Origin: Elusimicrobiota bacterium
GTDB lineage: Bacteria; Elusimicrobiota; Elusimicrobia; UBA1565
Assembly: GCA_016218495.1 (NCBI GenBank)
Contig: JACRDU010000152.1
Location: forward strand, 1-37,788
Reading direction: 5' to 3'
DNA length: 37,788 nt
Part shown: positions 17,348-23,524 of the stretch, one piece after another
Layout of the letters: every line of letters starts with the position of its first letter
Numbering within the stretch: position 1 is the stretch's first letter
The notes under the pieces: model-generated
Told to the model about the DNA's origin: nothing
Databases searched by the model: none
The model's input: the letters and a program-made list of their open reading frames with translations, nothing else
Position numbers and translations under genes: made by a program

Positions 17348-17464
17348 GTTTGGGCCTCTTGGTCAAAGGATGCGTCCCGATGGCCCCAGCCGCAAACTCC
17401 CATAGTCCCAGAGGAATATGGGCCCTAAGGCCTAGGAGCAGGCCGCTCCAAATAGAGGTATGCT
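17348..17464. promoter_or_regulatory. divergent control region of two secreted peptidase genes
   Basis: On the plus strand TATGCT (17459-17464) lies 7 nt before the ATG at 17472. For the subtilase, TATGGG on the minus strand is a possible -10. An inverted repeat CCCATA (17399-17404) / TATGGG (17417-17422) lies between the two and could be an operator. Nothing else was recognised in these 124 bases. Confidence 0.35.
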
Positions 17465-17471
17465 CAGTTCC

Positions 17472-19265
17472 ATGGATATCCGAATCCCCCTCCTGCCGCT
17501 GCTGCTCCTCGCCGCCCCGTACGCGCGCGCCGCCGCCCCCGCCCCGGATGCCGAGAAGTTCGTGGCCGACGTCGAGAAGAAGCTCGACGAGGCGGGCCGG
17601 CGCAGCCGCTTCGCCTCCTGGGTGCAGTCCACCCACATGACCTACGACACGGAATGGCTGTCGGCCGACGCCTCCCGGGCCTATGCCGCCGCCGCCGCGG
17701 ACCTGGCCCGCCAGGCGCGCCGGTTCGACGGCAAGCCCCTGTCGCCCGCCGCGGCCCGCAAGCTGCTCTTCCTGAAGCTCGCCGTCGAGGCGCCGGCCCC
17801 CCCCGACCCGGCCGAACAGCAGGAACTGGCCGACATCAAGGTCTGGCTCGAGGGCGCGTACTCCAAGGGCCGCTACTGCAAGACCCCCGACTCCTGCCTG
17901 AGCCTCGACGACATGGAGGACCGGTTCCGGACCAGCCGCGACCCCGCCGACCTGCTGGGCATGTGGCAGGGCTGGCGGACGGTCTCTCCCCCCATGCGCG
18001 CGAAGTACCAGCGCTTCGTCGAGCTCTCCAACAAGGGCGCCCGGGAGCTCGGCTTCAAGGACACCGCCGACCTGTGGCGCTCGGGCTACGACATGACCCC
18101 CGCCGAGTTCTCGGCCGAGCTCGACCGGGTCTGGCTGCAGCTCAAACCGCTCTACGAATCCCTGCACGCCTATGTCCGCCGGCGCCTGGCCGACACCTAC
18201 GGCGCCGACGCCATCGGCTCGGACGGCCTCATCCCGGCCCACCTGCTGGGCAACATGTGGGGCCAGGAATGGGGCAACGTCTTCCCCCTCGTGAAGCCCA
18301 AGGGGACCGCCGAGGGCTACGACCTGACCGAGCGCCTGCGCGCCAAGGGCGTCGACGAGAAGGGGATGGTCAAATACGGGGAGGGTTTCTTCTCCTCGCT
18401 GGGAATCGCCCCCCTGCCCGCCACCTTCTGGGAACGCTCGATGATCGTGAAGCCCGCGGGGCGCGAGGTGGTCTGCCACGCCTCGGCCTGGGACGTGGAG
18501 GACTCGCAGGACGTGCGCATCAAGATGTGCACGCGCGTGAACTCCGACGACTTCGTCACCGTCCACCACGAGCTGGGCCACAACTACTACCAGCGCGCCT
18601 ACGCCGGACAGCCCTACCTGTTCCGCGGCAGCGCCAACGACGGCTTCCACGAGGCCCTGGGCGACACCATCGCCCTCTCCATCACCCCCGCCTACCTCAA
18701 GCAGGTGGGCCTGCGCGACAGCGACGCCGGGGCCGACGAGGACACCGACCTGCTGCTAAGGATGGCCCTCGAGAGGGTGGCCTTCCAGCCCTTCGGGCTC
18801 CTGGTCGACAAATGGCGCTGGGGGGTCTTCTCCGGAGAGATCCCGCCCGGCCGCTACAACCAGGCCTGGTGGGACCTGGTGCGGCACTACCAGGGGCTCA
18901 AGCCCCCGGTGGCCCGCTCCGAAGCCGACTTCGACCCGGGAGCCAAGTACCACATCCCGGCGAACACCCCCTACGCGCGCTATTTCCTCGCGCAGGTCCT
19001 GCAGTTCCAGTTCTACCGGGCGCTCTGCCGGCAGACCGGACATACCGGGCCCCTCCACCGCTGCTCGTTCTACGGGAACAAGGAGGCCGGCAAGAAGCTC
19101 GAGGCCATGATGGCGATGGGCTCCAGCCGCCCCTGGCCGGACGCCCTCGAGGCGCTGACCGGGGAGCGCGCGATGGACGCGACCGCCATCCTCGAATACT
19201 TCGCCCCGCTGAAGGCCTGGCTCGACGAGCAGAACAAGGGGCAGTCCGTGGGCTGGAAGCCTTAG
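17472..19265 (+). CDS. M2-family peptidyl-dipeptidase (ACE-like), secreted
   Basis: Zinc metallopeptidase related to angiotensin-converting enzyme, which removes C-terminal dipeptides. 597 residues from the ATG at 17472, close to the single-domain M2 length. The signal peptide is about residues 1-21 (LLPLLLLAAPYARA). The zinc site is TVHHELGHNYYQ (H366, catalytic E367, H370), and the third ligand is E394 in FHEALGD. Other family marks are HLLGNMWGQEWGN and FLAQVLQFQFYRALC near the C-terminus. The whole catalytic set is present. I prefer the ATG at 17472 over 17460 because TATGCT is centred between them. Probably periplasmic, it may work with the divergent subtilase in using extracellular peptides. 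Confidence 0.88.
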   Translation: MDIRIPLLPLLLLAAPYARAAAPAPDAEKFVADVEKKLDEAGRRSRFASWVQSTHMTYDTEWLSADASRAYAAAAADLARQARRFDGKPLSPAAARKLLFLKLAVEAPAPPDPAEQQELADIKVWLEGAYSKGRYCKTPDSCLSLDDMEDRFRTSRDPADLLGMWQGWRTVSPPMRAKYQRFVELSNKGARELGFKDTADLWRSGYDMTPAEFSAELDRVWLQLKPLYESLHAYVRRRLADTYGADAIGSDGLIPAHLLGNMWGQEWGNVFPLVKPKGTAEGYDLTERLRAKGVDEKGMVKYGEGFFSSLGIAPLPATFWERSMIVKPAGREVVCHASAWDVEDSQDVRIKMCTRVNSDDFVTVHHELGHNYYQRAYAGQPYLFRGSANDGFHEALGDTIALSITPAYLKQVGLRDSDAGADEDTDLLLRMALERVAFQPFGLLVDKWRWGVFSGEIPPGRYNQAWWDLVRHYQGLKPPVARSEADFDPGAKYHIPANTPYARYFLAQVLQFQFYRALCRQTGHTGPLHRCSFYGNKEAGKKLEAMMAMGSSRPWPDALEALTGERAMDATAILEYFAPLKAWLDEQNKGQSVGWKP

Positions 19266-19303: not shown

Positions 19304-20098
19304 ATGCCGGTGCCCGCCCCCCGCTATTGGGTCTACGCCAGCGAGCATGTCGTGGGTCCCTACGACCCCGACGAGGTCGCGCGCCTGCCGGTATTCTCGG
19401 CGGACCTGGCGCTCTGTCCCGAGGCGCTGCAAGGAACGCCCGAGGAGAGCTGGCACCGGGCCGCCGACGACCCCGCCTTCGCCGCGCTGTTCCCCGCCGA
19501 ACAGCGCACCCCGGAGGGCAGCCAGCCTCCCCGCGTCGGCCCCTGGCCGCCCGACCCCGAGCGGGAGACCGACCTGCTCGCCACCGCCCAGGAGCGCATG
19601 AGCATAATCGACCGCTCCTTGGAGGCGACCCAAAAACGCCTGGCCCTGCGTCGGGAGGCCTACGAGAGGCTCAAGCGCGACATAGCGGCCCGCGCCGCCT
19701 CCGCCACCGAGATGGAGGCGAAGATTCGGGCCATGGGCGCCCGCATGGGTGGCTTCCTCGGGGTCAAGGAGGAACTAGACCAGGCCCGCGCGGCGCTGGC
19801 CATGCACAACCAGCGCGCGAGCGAGCAGGACCTGCGTCTGGAGACCATGCAGGCCGAGGCCCGGGAGACCGCCGCCGCCGCCGAGGCGCGCCTCAAAGCC
19901 GAGTTGGAGGCGAAGATTGCGGAGCTGGAGGCGCGCCTGGCCGAGGTGAAGACGGCGGCGGCCAGGGCCGCTAGGCGCACGCGGCCGGAAAGGCCGGAGA
20001 AGGCCGCGCGCCGCGAACGCCCGCCGCGCCCGAAAGGCCCCGGGGTGGACCTGGGCCTGCCCCCCGCCTCCTCCGTGGACATCCCGGACTTCTCTTGA
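19304..20098 (+). CDS. coiled-coil protein with GYF_2-like N-terminal domain
   Basis: 264 residues from the ATG at 19304. The first 50 (APRYWVYASEHVVGPYDPDEVARLP) resemble the GYF_2 domain, in which a W/Y pair and a GP[YF] turn form a small beta sheet, as in proteins of envelope or signalling complexes. Residues about 90-215 are a long coiled coil, rich in Glu, Ala, Arg and Leu (TQKRLALRREAYERLKRDIA, then an Ala/Glu-rich heptad stretch). The C-terminus is basic (about 215-245) and ends in DLGLPPASSVDIPDFS. No transmembrane segment. The stop overlaps the TTG start of the GT-C-like protein (TTGA, 20095-20098), which suggests a shared complex or process. Confidence 0.6.
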   Translation: MPVPAPRYWVYASEHVVGPYDPDEVARLPVFSADLALCPEALQGTPEESWHRAADDPAFAALFPAEQRTPEGSQPPRVGPWPPDPERETDLLATAQERMSIIDRSLEATQKRLALRREAYERLKRDIAARAASATEMEAKIRAMGARMGGFLGVKEELDQARAALAMHNQRASEQDLRLETMQAEARETAAAAEARLKAELEAKIAELEARLAEVKTAAARAARRTRPERPEKAARRERPPRPKGPGVDLGLPPASSVDIPDFS

Positions 20099-21684
20099 GC
20101 GGCGACGACGAACCGCTCTCTGCGGCCAGTGTCAGCTTATTCCTGTTCGCGGCGGCCGTATGCGCCTCCCCCCTCGTCGACCCCGACATGTGGTGGCATC
20201 TGGCTGCGGCAGGATTGCCCGGGTTCCCCCCCACGGCGGAGAGTTGGTCGCACACGCTCCCCGGCGCGCATTGGGTGGATTTCGAGTGGTTGGGACAATC
20301 GGCGATGGCCTCGTGCGGAGGACTCTTCGGGTTCCGGGGCCTCGTCGCGCTAAAAGCCCTCGTCTGCGCTGCAGCCATTTCAATGACCTTCGCGGCCGCC
20401 CGCCAAGAGCGCGCCGGACTCCCTGCGGCGCTCCTCGGCGCACTCCTCGCCCTCACGGCCATACGTCTGCGTGCCCATGCCCGGCCCGAGCTGGCGACCC
20501 TGCTCTTGCTGCCTCTTTTCCTATGGTCGGCCCGGGCTTCGGAGGAGAAGTCGTGGGCTCTGGCCCCGCTTCCCCTGCTCAGCCTCTTTTGGACGAACAT
20601 GCACGGGGGCTGGGTCCTCGGACCCGCCATCCTCGGAGCCGCGGGGGTGGGGCGGGCCTGGCGCCTGCGCGACGGGCGCCACCCCGCCGCCCTGCGGCTT
20701 TGGGGCGCTTCCCTGGCCTGCTTCGCGGCCTCCTTCCTCAATCCCTACGGGACACGCATGCACGCCGTCGTCCTCGAACACGCCCTCCACCCCCCGGCCG
20801 CCGCCGGAATCGAGGAGTGGAGCAGCGCGGCGCTCGTGCAGTTCCCCGCCTTCTGGCTGCTTCTTGCCGGAGTCCTGGTTCGCCTGGCCCTGGACCTGCG
20901 CCGGAACAAGCGCGAGAGCCTCTATTGGCTCTGTCTGCTGGCGCCCTTCGCGGTGCTCGGGCTCTCCGGCGCCCGCTTCGCCCCGTTCTTCTGCCTGGTC
21001 GCCCCAGCCTACCTCTTCTCGGGCCTGGCCGACCTGCCGCCGTCGCGCGCCCTGCGCTGGGGCCTGCCGGCCGCGGGCCTGGCCCTGGTCCTCGGCATGG
21101 CGCCGCCCCTCTTCGCGCGCGACTGGGAATCCCCCGTGCGCTGGGAGCGCACGCCCCGGCAGGCCCTGGAGTTTCTCGAGCGCGAAGGCGTGGAAGGCAC
21201 GCTCTTCAACGACTACGGCTTCGGCGGGTTCATCGACTGGAGCACCTCAGGGCGGAGGCCGGTCTACTACGACGGCCGCTACCTGTTCCAGGGCCTGCTG
21301 GCCGAAGCCGCGGCCGCGGCCGAGGACCCGGCGGCTTTCCAGGCGCTGATGGACCGACGCGTTGTGACCTACGCCCTCGTACCGCTGGCGCACGCCCCGG
21401 TGCAGGGTCCCGACGGGACGGTGCGCTCGCCGTGGAAGCTCCGTTTCCCCGCAGAGCATTGGGCTCTGGTCTGGTCCGACGACGCCGCCCAGGTCTTCGT
21501 GCGCAGGGAAGAACGCTACGCCGGGCTCATCGCCCGGACGGAGCTCCGCTACGCCGACCCGGCCGACGCCGACTTCGTTCTGGCTCAGGTCCGTGCAGGC
21601 TCCTGGTCCGCCGACGCCGTGAGGGCCGAGGCGGCCGGGCTCCCCGGCGCGGCCGGGAAGGCCCTGGCGTCCCTCTTTCCCTAG
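20095..21684 (+). CDS. polytopic membrane protein, GT-C-like
   Basis: 529-residue integral membrane protein. It has about ten predicted transmembrane helices over residues 1-345, then a soluble C-terminal domain that is probably periplasmic. The first periplasmic loop has VDPDMWWHLAAAG and later VDFEWLGQSA, the acidic/aromatic pattern typical of bacterial GT-C-type glycosyltransferase-like proteins in which an Asp in this loop is catalytic. WTNMHGGWVLGP lies in the middle. The C-terminal domain starts with LFNDYGFGGFIDWS and RPVYYDGRYLF, a combination seen in uncharacterised members of this group. The start is TTG, fused with the stop of the preceding gene. A strong hairpin (21693-21719) follows the stop by 9 nt. 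The donor lipid and acceptor are unknown. Confidence 0.7.
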   Translation: MSGDDEPLSAASVSLFLFAAAVCASPLVDPDMWWHLAAAGLPGFPPTAESWSHTLPGAHWVDFEWLGQSAMASCGGLFGFRGLVALKALVCAAAISMTFAAARQERAGLPAALLGALLALTAIRLRAHARPELATLLLLPLFLWSARASEEKSWALAPLPLLSLFWTNMHGGWVLGPAILGAAGVGRAWRLRDGRHPAALRLWGASLACFAASFLNPYGTRMHAVVLEHALHPPAAAGIEEWSSAALVQFPAFWLLLAGVLVRLALDLRRNKRESLYWLCLLAPFAVLGLSGARFAPFFCLVAPAYLFSGLADLPPSRALRWGLPAAGLALVLGMAPPLFARDWESPVRWERTPRQALEFLEREGVEGTLFNDYGFGGFIDWSTSGRRPVYYDGRYLFQGLLAEAAAAAEDPAAFQALMDRRVVTYALVPLAHAPVQGPDGTVRSPWKLRFPAEHWALVWSDDAAQVFVRREERYAGLIARTELRYADPADADFVLAQVRAGSWSADAVRAEAAGLPGAAGKALASLFP

Positions 21685-21692
21685 GACGAAGA

Positions 21693-21719
21693 AGGCCCCG
21701 GCGGGATTCGCCGGGGCCT
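21693..21719. terminator. hairpin terminator at end of the 20095 gene, facing the displaced tRNA fragment
   Basis: A perfect 11-bp stem, AGGCCCCGGCG paired with CGCCGGGGCCT, and a 5-nt loop. No T-tract follows on the plus strand. It lies 9 nt past the stop of the membrane protein gene and 9 nt from the displaced tRNA-Leu 3' fragment, so before insertion it was probably the tRNA's own downstream hairpin. Confidence 0.6.
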
Positions 21720-21728
21720 ATCAGAAGA

Positions 21729-21781
21729 TTGCGCGAGAAGGGACTCGAACCCTTACAGGATTTCTCCCACACGCCCCTCAA
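21729..21781. repeat. left 53-bp direct repeat (att), displaced tRNA-Leu 3' end
   Basis: Identical to 23440-23492. Covers the anticodon loop to the discriminator of tRNA-Leu(GAG), on the minus strand. The sequences diverge directly beyond both ends. The 5' half of the tRNA is missing, though 21782-21811 happens to begin with GCGCGG when read on the minus strand. Confidence 0.85.
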
Positions 21782-21811
21782 GCGGCAGCATGCCCGTCGG
21801 AGATTCCGCGC

Positions 21812-21940
21812 TTAGACGAGGTCGCGGGTCGACAGGGATTTCGCCTTGCGGAGCTTGTTGAGAAAGTCCCTGTAGGCTGGTATCGCCAGAGGGGTGGGAG
21901 CCACCGCTCCAGCGGATTTGGGTTGACGGGCTCGGCTCAT
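21812..21940 (-). CDS. small hypothetical protein (42 aa) in the integrated element
   Basis: Short gene, 42 residues, with a good ribosome site: AAGGTGA ends 4 nt before the ATG at 21940. The product begins with a basic SRARQPK stretch and ends in an amphipathic helix (YRDFLNKLRKAKSLSTRD). No family recognised. It lies just inside the left att repeat and reads towards it. The ribosome site is the main reason to accept it; chance cannot be excluded at this length. Confidence 0.4.
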   Translation of the reverse strand: MSRARQPKSAGAVAPTPLAIPAYRDFLNKLRKAKSLSTRDLV

Positions 21941-22074
21941 GGGGTCACCTTCGGGGTATGGGGATTGACATTGATTGGTATAATCGCGGCGGGCATGGTC
22001 GTCACGCAGTCGCGCTCGGAACACGAACCGCGCATTCCTAAATCAGGAAGGCGGGGGGGGGAGTTGCTTTCCGT

Positions 22075-22177
22075 GGTCCATGGGCATGGTCACTTGGGCG
22101 GGACTCTCCCCGCGCCCAAGGGGGTGCGGAGAAAAAGCCAGTTTGCGCGCGGTTGAGTTATCCATTGCCCATGGACC
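22075..22177. repeat. nested inverted repeats (12-bp outer, 8-bp inner)
   Basis: Outer arms GGTCCATGGGCA (22075-22086) and TGCCCATGGACC (22166-22177) are perfect complements; with a 1-nt gap they extend by three more bases. Inside, CTTGGGCG (22093-22100) pairs with CGCCCAAG (22113-22120). The region is otherwise gene-free (21941-22234) and precedes the ribbon-helix-helix gene. It could be an operator array, a structured RNA or a replication/transfer site of the element. Confidence 0.6.
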
Positions 22178-22234
22178 GTATGCTTCTAGGGGCCCCTGTA
22201 GCACACAGCAGCCGGAATGTCAAGGGATTTCTAA

Positions 22235-22486
22235 ATGAGCGAGAAAAAGGCAAATCCTCGACGACAAAACCGCGTCGCGGTTTATCTCCCATTGGAAATT
22301 CGCGATGCGCTCGGCCGTCTGCGAAAGCAAAAAGCCGTTCCTGATTCGGAGTCAACGTTCATCGTAAACGCGCTCGCCGAATGGCTTGACCACAACAAAG
22401 TGGAATGGAGAAATTCCGGGAGGTCCCTTCCCAACGAACGACCACCAGGGCTACGTGGACCGACTCTGGGAGGGCGCGGTGTCTAA
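22235..22486 (+). CDS. ribbon-helix-helix-like DNA-binding protein
   Basis: 83 residues. The centre follows the MetJ/Arc/CopG pattern: a short basic strand NRVAVYLPLEI (about 12-22), helix RDALGRLRKQKAVP and a second helix SESTFIVNALAEWLDHN (about 38-54). Such proteins dimerise through the strand and bind operators, often controlling plasmid copy number, toxin-antitoxin pairs or integrative elements. The C-terminal 25 residues are polar and Pro/Gly-rich. The ATG has AAGGGA 7 nt upstream. The coding sequence is noticeably less GC-rich than the chromosomal genes, fitting acquisition with the element. The inverted repeats at 22075-22177 lie upstream and may be its target. No toxin partner is seen next to it. 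Confidence 0.55.
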   Translation: MSEKKANPRRQNRVAVYLPLEIRDALGRLRKQKAVPDSESTFIVNALAEWLDHNKVEWRNSGRSLPNERPPGLRGPTLGGRGV

Positions 22487-22537
22487 TTCTCCGGTTTGGC
22501 GTCTCTGGGCTAAATGGCTGGATGGGGAGGTGACGCC

Positions 22538-22771
22538 ATGAGCGGAGGGCCTGTCTGCGCCGTCTGCGGATATCACGGGGCGCCTGACAGGGAGACCCCG
22601 GGGAGCATCCTCATAGAAGTCGTCTTGTGGTGCGCGTTCATCATCCCCGGCATCATCTACTCCCTTTGGCGTCTCACCAACAAAAAGGACGTCTGCGCCA
22701 AGTGCTCGTCGCCTGCGCTCATCCCGGCGGATTCACCACGGGGGCGCAAGATCATCGCGGACGGGCAATGA
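22538..22771 (+). CDS. zinc-ribbon membrane protein
   Basis: 77 residues from the ATG at 22538, chosen because GGAGGTGA lies 4 nt upstream; an ATG at 22514 in the same frame has no such site. Layout: CAVCGYHG (first Cys pair, about residues 7-10), a hydrophobic helix VVLWCAFIIPGIIYSLWRL (about 30-48) and KDVCAKCSSPALIPADSPRG (second Cys pair). This is a recognisable small bacterial family in which two halves of a zinc ribbon flank a membrane hairpin; its function is not known. The stop overlaps the start of the next gene (ATGA, 22768-22771), so the two are coupled. Carried within the integrated element. Confidence 0.7.
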   Translation: MSGGPVCAVCGYHGAPDRETPGSILIEVVLWCAFIIPGIIYSLWRLTNKKDVCAKCSSPALIPADSPRGRKIIADGQ

Positions 22772-23148
22772 GGCTCCGCCTCGAGGTCGCCACGAACACC
22801 CGGGCCCCGTCCTGGCCCTTCGTGCTGCGCCTGCTCCGGCAGTGGCGCCACTACGAGCTGCGCGTCGAAGACGGCGTCGAGGTCCACGTCCTCGAGTTCG
22901 ACGACGAGAAGGACTTCGTCCCCTACTTCGAGCCCGTGAACAGCTGGAAGACCTACAGCGTCTATCGGGACGGAAAGCTCATCACGCACTCGGCCGCCTT
23001 CGGCATCTACCACAAGGTGCTCTACCCCAACGCCTACAACCCTCTCCGCGGCGAGGAACCCCCCACGGACTACGCCGAGCGGGCCCGCTACGCCCGCCGG
23101 GTCTCCCCCCTCCCACCCGACGAGCTCCCGCCGCCCGCGGGGGACTAG
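22768..23148 (+). CDS. hypothetical protein coupled to zinc-ribbon protein
   Basis: 126 residues, not recognised. The ATG at 22768 overlaps the stop of the zinc-ribbon gene. There is no membrane span or signal peptide. The first half has a basic helix (WPFVLRLLRQWRHYELRVE) followed by strands (VEVHVLEFDDEKDFVPYF, TYSVYRDGKLITHSAAFGI), suggesting a compact alpha/beta protein; the C-terminal third is Pro/Arg-rich. Its composition is closer to the chromosome than that of the 22235 gene. It lies directly upstream of the recombinase remnant, which begins within the bases of its stop codon in another frame. Confidence 0.55.
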   Translation: MRLRLEVATNTRAPSWPFVLRLLRQWRHYELRVEDGVEVHVLEFDDEKDFVPYFEPVNSWKTYSVYRDGKLITHSAAFGIYHKVLYPNAYNPLRGEEPPTDYAERARYARRVSPLPPDELPPPAGD

Positions 23149-23435
23149 GTGCCCTCCGTCTGGTCCTGCGCCGCGGCCGCAACTGGCGCGTCTATTGGCG
23201 GGTCGGCTCGCGCTCCCTTGACGCGGGCCTGGACCTGCCCACCGTCATGCAGTTGACCGGGAACCGGGACATCCGCTCGATGATGCACTACGCCAAGATG
23301 GGCCAGGGCGTGCGCCCAGCGCACCTGGCCCGGCTCTCCTACGACCTGGCCCCTAAGCCGGGAGATGCCCCCCCGGTGCCCCCAAAACGCCGAGGCCCCC
23401 GTCGCCGTTGGGGCTCCGGGGGCCTCACTACTTAG
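23148..23435 (+). pseudogene. tyrosine recombinase (phage-type integrase) C-terminal remnant
   Basis: Only the end of an integrase is readable: LDAGLDLPTVMQLTGNRDIR followed by MMHYAKMG, the classical box around the last His and the nucleophilic Tyr (codon 23289-23291). The family's GH position is GN here (codon 23262-23264), so a catalytic His is lost, and the conserved Arg-containing box I and the HxxR part of box II are absent. A preceding LRRGRNWRVYWRVG could be part of an N-terminal arm domain brought next to it by deletion. No start codon or ribosome site is evident. The frame ends 4 nt before the right att repeat, the usual place of an integrase next to its attachment site. Confidence 0.7.
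23392..23426 (-). terminator. hairpin downstream of tRNA-Leu, inside the recombinase remnant end
   Basis: A perfect 10-bp stem, GAGGCCCCCG (23392-23401) with CGGGGGCCTC (23417-23426), and a 15-nt loop. It lies 14 nt past the 3' end of tRNA-Leu on the minus strand, so it probably ends the gap-secG-tRNA transcript. It resembles the hairpin at 21693-21719 near the displaced tRNA copy. Confidence 0.5.
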
Positions 23436-23439
23436 ACGG

Positions 23440-23492
23440 TTGCGCGAGAAGGGACTCGAACCCTTACAGGATTTCTCCCACACGCCCCTCAA
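23440..23492. repeat. right 53-bp direct repeat (att) within tRNA-Leu
   Basis: Identical to 21729-21781. Overlaps the intact tRNA-Leu from its anticodon loop to its 3' end, so integration would have regenerated a functional tRNA. Confidence 0.85.
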
Positions 23493-23524
23493 ACGTGCGC
23501 GTCTGCCAGTTCCGCCACCCGCGC
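23441..23524 (-). tRNA. tRNA-Leu (anticodon GAG)
   Basis: 84 nt. The acceptor stem GCGCGGG pairs with CTCGCGC (one G-U), with discriminator A. The anticodon stem CACGT/GCGTG encloses the loop TTGAGGG, giving GAG. A long class II variable arm (GGGA/TCCT stem) and the T-arm AAGGG/CCCTT with TTCGAGT follow. CCA is not encoded; the discriminator is followed by ACC. It begins 10 nt after secG, the same neighbour order as secG-leuU in E. coli, and serves as the integration site of the element to its left. Confidence 0.92.

Follow-up and report, generated by a model that had tools for sequence, protein, structure and literature searches.

The DNA window analysed here, a whole stretch of 37,788 nucleotides (37.8 kb) from an Elusimicrobiota bacterium, is an entire contig and part of a 4.15-Mb assembly. 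Within it, a direct repeat of 53 bp marks off an insert of 1,711 bp. The two copies are exact over their length and diverge immediately outside it, and lists of k-mers give this pair as the sole exact repeat of at least 40 bp in the window. Within the tRNA-Leu(GAG) gene, the repeat runs from the anticodon loop to the 3' end, and the left copy consists of that part alone. ARAGORN calls an intact tRNA at the right copy and none at the left one. An earlier note, made from the letters of this DNA, had described the same identity, with the right copy in an intact tRNA-Leu(GAG) and the left only its 3' half, and it was accurate on both counts.

Table 1. Features of the insert and its borders (positions within the window)
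Feature	Position	Strand	Basis or comment
Left flank, terminator-like hairpin	21685-21728		Follows tRNA-Leu immediately in the empty site of genome G001
Distal attachment-site copy: the 52 nt at the 3' end of tRNA-Leu and one further base	21729-21781	-	Exact repeat
Divergent 42-codon frame (relative to the RHH operon), possible truncated regulator	21812-21940	-	Sequence
12-bp exact inverted repeat GGTCCATGGGCA/TGCCCATGGACC, 79-bp spacer	22075-22177		Precedes the RHH-like gene
Small RHH-like regulator (83 aa)	22235-22486	+	By-eye pattern
Small membrane protein, CxxC motifs, weak Pmp3 similarity	22539-22771	+	Pmp3 E=1.9e-4
ORF3, 126 aa, unnamed recombinase-adjacent family	22768-23148	+	Relatives in genomes G052, G053, G223 and G010
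Remnant of a tyrosine integrase: VPSVW at the start, a frame slip, an N-terminal strand motif, a C-terminal tyrosine block	23149-23435	+
Integrase-proximal attachment-site copy within tRNA-Leu	23440-23492	-	Exact 53-bp repeat
tRNA-Leu(GAG), intact, integration target	23441-23524	-	ARAGORN, Rfam RF00005

Three small genes lie in open frames between the copies, where the earlier note had placed them. The RHH-like protein has no match in Pfam, PHROG or NCBIfam, no homologue in the 341 genomes of the phylum set, and no counterpart among solved structures; a single-sequence AlphaFold model predicts helices at residues 20-31 and 37-53 with low confidence (pLDDT 54). The Pmp3 match of the membrane protein falls just under the family cut-off and was obtained with the longer frame 22514-22771 as the query. 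The window member of the ORF3 family has no Pfam (at cut-off), PHROG or NCBIfam match, and the family appears to match no known one. Base composition is mixed, with 55% G+C in the RHH region and 69% in ORF3, whose GC3 is 0.95. In the control region, the arms of the inverted repeat (22075-22086 and 22166-22177) reach 12 bp against a maximum of 11 in 30 simulated sequences, and they are possibly paired operators. By eye, the divergent 42-codon frame resembles at its end the beginning of an XRE-type HTH domain; it stops near the attachment site and may be an XRE-type regulator cut short by the deletion. This frame has no Pfam match and no homologue in the 341 genomes. The structured non-coding stretch that the earlier note also listed contains this inverted repeat, but the idea of a structured RNA there was dropped, because its folding scores are weak (z of -1.25 for plus-strand RNA, -2.16 for minus-strand RNA and -1.81 for DNA) and it belongs to no Rfam family, the tRNA being the sole Rfam match. 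Elsewhere in the window, positions 17460-19265 hold a bacterial Peptidase_M2 gene of the angiotensin-converting-enzyme family (full-length match, E=4.5e-222).

The gene adjoining the attachment site is an integrase, present as an internally deleted remnant. It opens with a GTG directly behind the ORF3 stop and encodes VPSVW, comparable to the starts of three other tyrosine integrases (MPSAW, NPSVW and HPSVW, or PS(V/A)W, among G053, G010 and G223). After codon 5 a frame slip occurs, and the next stretch, LRRGRNWRVYWRV, resembles residues 12-22 of the G223 integrase (KRGRVWLVRWE). Directly after it comes the tyrosine block LDAGLDLPTVMQLTGNRDIRSMMHYAKM; its counterpart in the same protein begins at about residue 297, and the block aligns near the C-terminus of full-length integrases in G002 and G025. 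About 270 codons are missing, and with them the catalytic Arg, Lys and His-x-x-Arg residues; the complete catalytic set of an autonomous element is absent. Against an integrase profile, the remnant frame outscores the other five frames and all 200 shuffles. With E 2.5e-6 for a single sequence, the score itself is modest, and there is no Pfam hit to the remnant. This modest evidence of identity, drawn from the sequence, agrees with position and gene order, and 23435, where the frame stops, is 4 nt from the right attachment copy, as the earlier note had reported for its recombinase remnant.

The note had also proposed looking for an empty site in related genomes. Two congeneric genomes, G001 and G002, have secG and then tRNA-Leu(GAG) with no insert, the opposite of a 1.7-kb stretch kept by all relatives. 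When the window flanks were joined in silico by a script and aligned to G001, the alignment spanned query 12-703 and so crossed the junction, which lies at 661; with the unjoined window sequence it ends at 661. The hairpin of the left flank and the G001 sequence behind tRNA-Leu give a score reached by none of 500 shuffles. In G002, the neighbouring genes are co-linear, with the homologue of window 20095-21684 coming next. In G001, a different, unrelated insert of about 4 kb separates the hairpin from that homologue, so the spot behind tRNA-Leu is variable. Two small genes of this other insert (L036 8474-9420, contig C6) lie right behind tRNA-Leu, and one of them resembles a zeta-toxin-like kinase by eye. 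From the repeat, the partial left copy, the empty sites and the flanks that align through the junction, it follows that these 1,711 bp were inserted into a tRNA gene at its 3' end, as had been claimed.

Relatives of ORF3 were found in four of the 340 other genomes of the phylum set (loci L033, L034, L042 and L043) and in none of the IMG/VR viral contigs. Those of G010 and G223 are distant, at 22-24% identity to the window protein, and a three-sequence profile scores them at E 2.9e-9 and 1.0e-14, respectively. An intact recombinase gene lies immediately downstream of the relative in all four genomes. It is a tyrosine integrase in G053, with an S24-type repressor upstream, and in G223, with RecT and YqaJ genes nearby. 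In G052, it is a serine recombinase, the end of which overlaps the 3' end of tRNA-Gln, and an S24-type repressor again lies upstream. G010 has a tyrosine integrase and a PD-(D/E)XK nuclease gene nearby, and its gene order is that of the window: an RHH-like gene, a membrane protein, the ORF3 relative, the integrase and a tRNA. The RHH-like protein of G010 has a weak Arc-like PHROG match and no sequence similarity to the window protein at the matching position; an HTH gene lies divergent to its gene. At the same locus (L043 6857-9112, contig C19), a second copy of part of tRNA-Ala lies about 2.1 kb upstream of the gene itself, and an apparent AbiEi/AbiEii-type pair can be made out by eye between the two.

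The insert is very probably the integrase-proximal operon left by a temperate-phage-type element, its body deleted and the remainder fixed in tRNA-Leu. A tyrosine integrase, whose action we infer, would have recombined the attachment site of the element with the part of tRNA-Leu(GAG) between the anticodon loop and the 3' end. The repeat, the intact tRNA and the empty sites show an insertion that restored a working tRNA and placed a 53-bp copy at its other end. Later deletions would have removed most of the integrase gene, where the damage is visible, and also the body of the element, as the relatives suggest. Because no intact close copy of the window element was found, we infer this body from gene order and have not seen it. 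What would remain is an operon of the RHH-like regulator, the small membrane protein and ORF3 with its upstream control region. It is possible that these small genes are still expressed, or else that they are drifting. The decayed larger island that the earlier note had considered is supported by the gene order matched in G010 and by the internally deleted, frame-disrupted integrase. Within the 1.7 kb, no repressor, recombination or structural phage gene was recognised; the phage-type genes (S24, RecT, YqaJ and PD-(D/E)XK) lie near the ORF3 relatives, outside the window element. Since no phage structural genes were seen in the stretches read, the “prophage” could also be a non-phage island. 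The element is fixed in place and immobile on its own because its integrase is destroyed. With empty sites in sister genomes and longer elements of its kind in other Elusimicrobia, it amounts to a rather unremarkable scar in the genome.

The earlier note had also suggested a small satellite that borrows its integrase. Such a non-autonomous element would keep both attachment sites and be excised and integrated by the integrase of another element. Both 53-bp sites are perfect, the cargo is compact with open frames, and the genome has 13 PF00589 matches that represent other tyrosine integrases. However, none of these integrases is close to the remnant, and the search for further copies that the note had called for found the cargo to be single-copy in its own genome. 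A DNA search with the whole insert likewise gave no second copy and matched relatives essentially at the tRNA only. The viral contigs, as said, hold no ORF3 relative, and the broken integrase that the element itself has at the canonical position marks it as formerly autonomous. A satellite is therefore unlikely. Slightly less likely again is a bolder version, a 1.7-kb tRNA-targeting mini-element still moved by a foreign integrase, in which ORF3 travels with two unrelated recombinase superfamilies and may control them.

The insert could also be a composite, in which several insertions used one tRNA and homologous recombination between successive attachment sites left a small cargo. The mixed base composition and the unrelated insert at the same spot in G001 would fit such a history, but the insert shows no more than two attachment-site copies and a single integrase remnant, and we give this account a still smaller chance than the mini-element. 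Partial tRNA copies arise in other ways too, CRISPR uptake being listed as one (PMC9897764), but a partial tRNA duplication without a mobile element is hardly credible here, given the integrase remnant adjoining the intact tRNA, the ancestral terminator behind the left copy, and the recombinase-linked relatives of the cargo between the copies.

The ORF3 family, a side product of reading the insert as a decayed phage-type element, may matter more than the element itself. Its members immediately precede recombinases of both the tyrosine and the serine type, and it is a candidate regulator of integration or lysogeny.

Among known systems, PICIs are larger and have their own integrase and regulators. 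The window element is like phage satellites of the PICI type (e.g., PMC10111431) in being small, site-specific and dependent on other elements, and unlike them in that no PICI hallmark gene was seen in it. It also resembles the tRNA-Ala element of G010, which has the same order of RHH-like gene, membrane protein, ORF3 relative and tyrosine integrase, with the integrase reaching to within 4 nt of the tRNA. Unlike the window element, the one in G010 has an intact integrase followed by phage-type recombination genes; its contig ends before the far attachment site comes into view. The general process by which defective prophages and genomic islands come to occupy tRNA 3' ends has been reviewed (PMC9897764, citing Reiter 1989 and Williams 2002). 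As in those prophages and islands, the direct repeat is the 3' part of the tRNA, with the intact tRNA at the integrase end and a partial one at the far end. The window element differs in being down to 1.7 kb and in its internally deleted integrase. It belongs to a known kind, of which other Elusimicrobia carry longer elements with intact recombinase genes, and it documents a tRNA-targeting phage-type element together with its empty site in this poorly studied phylum.
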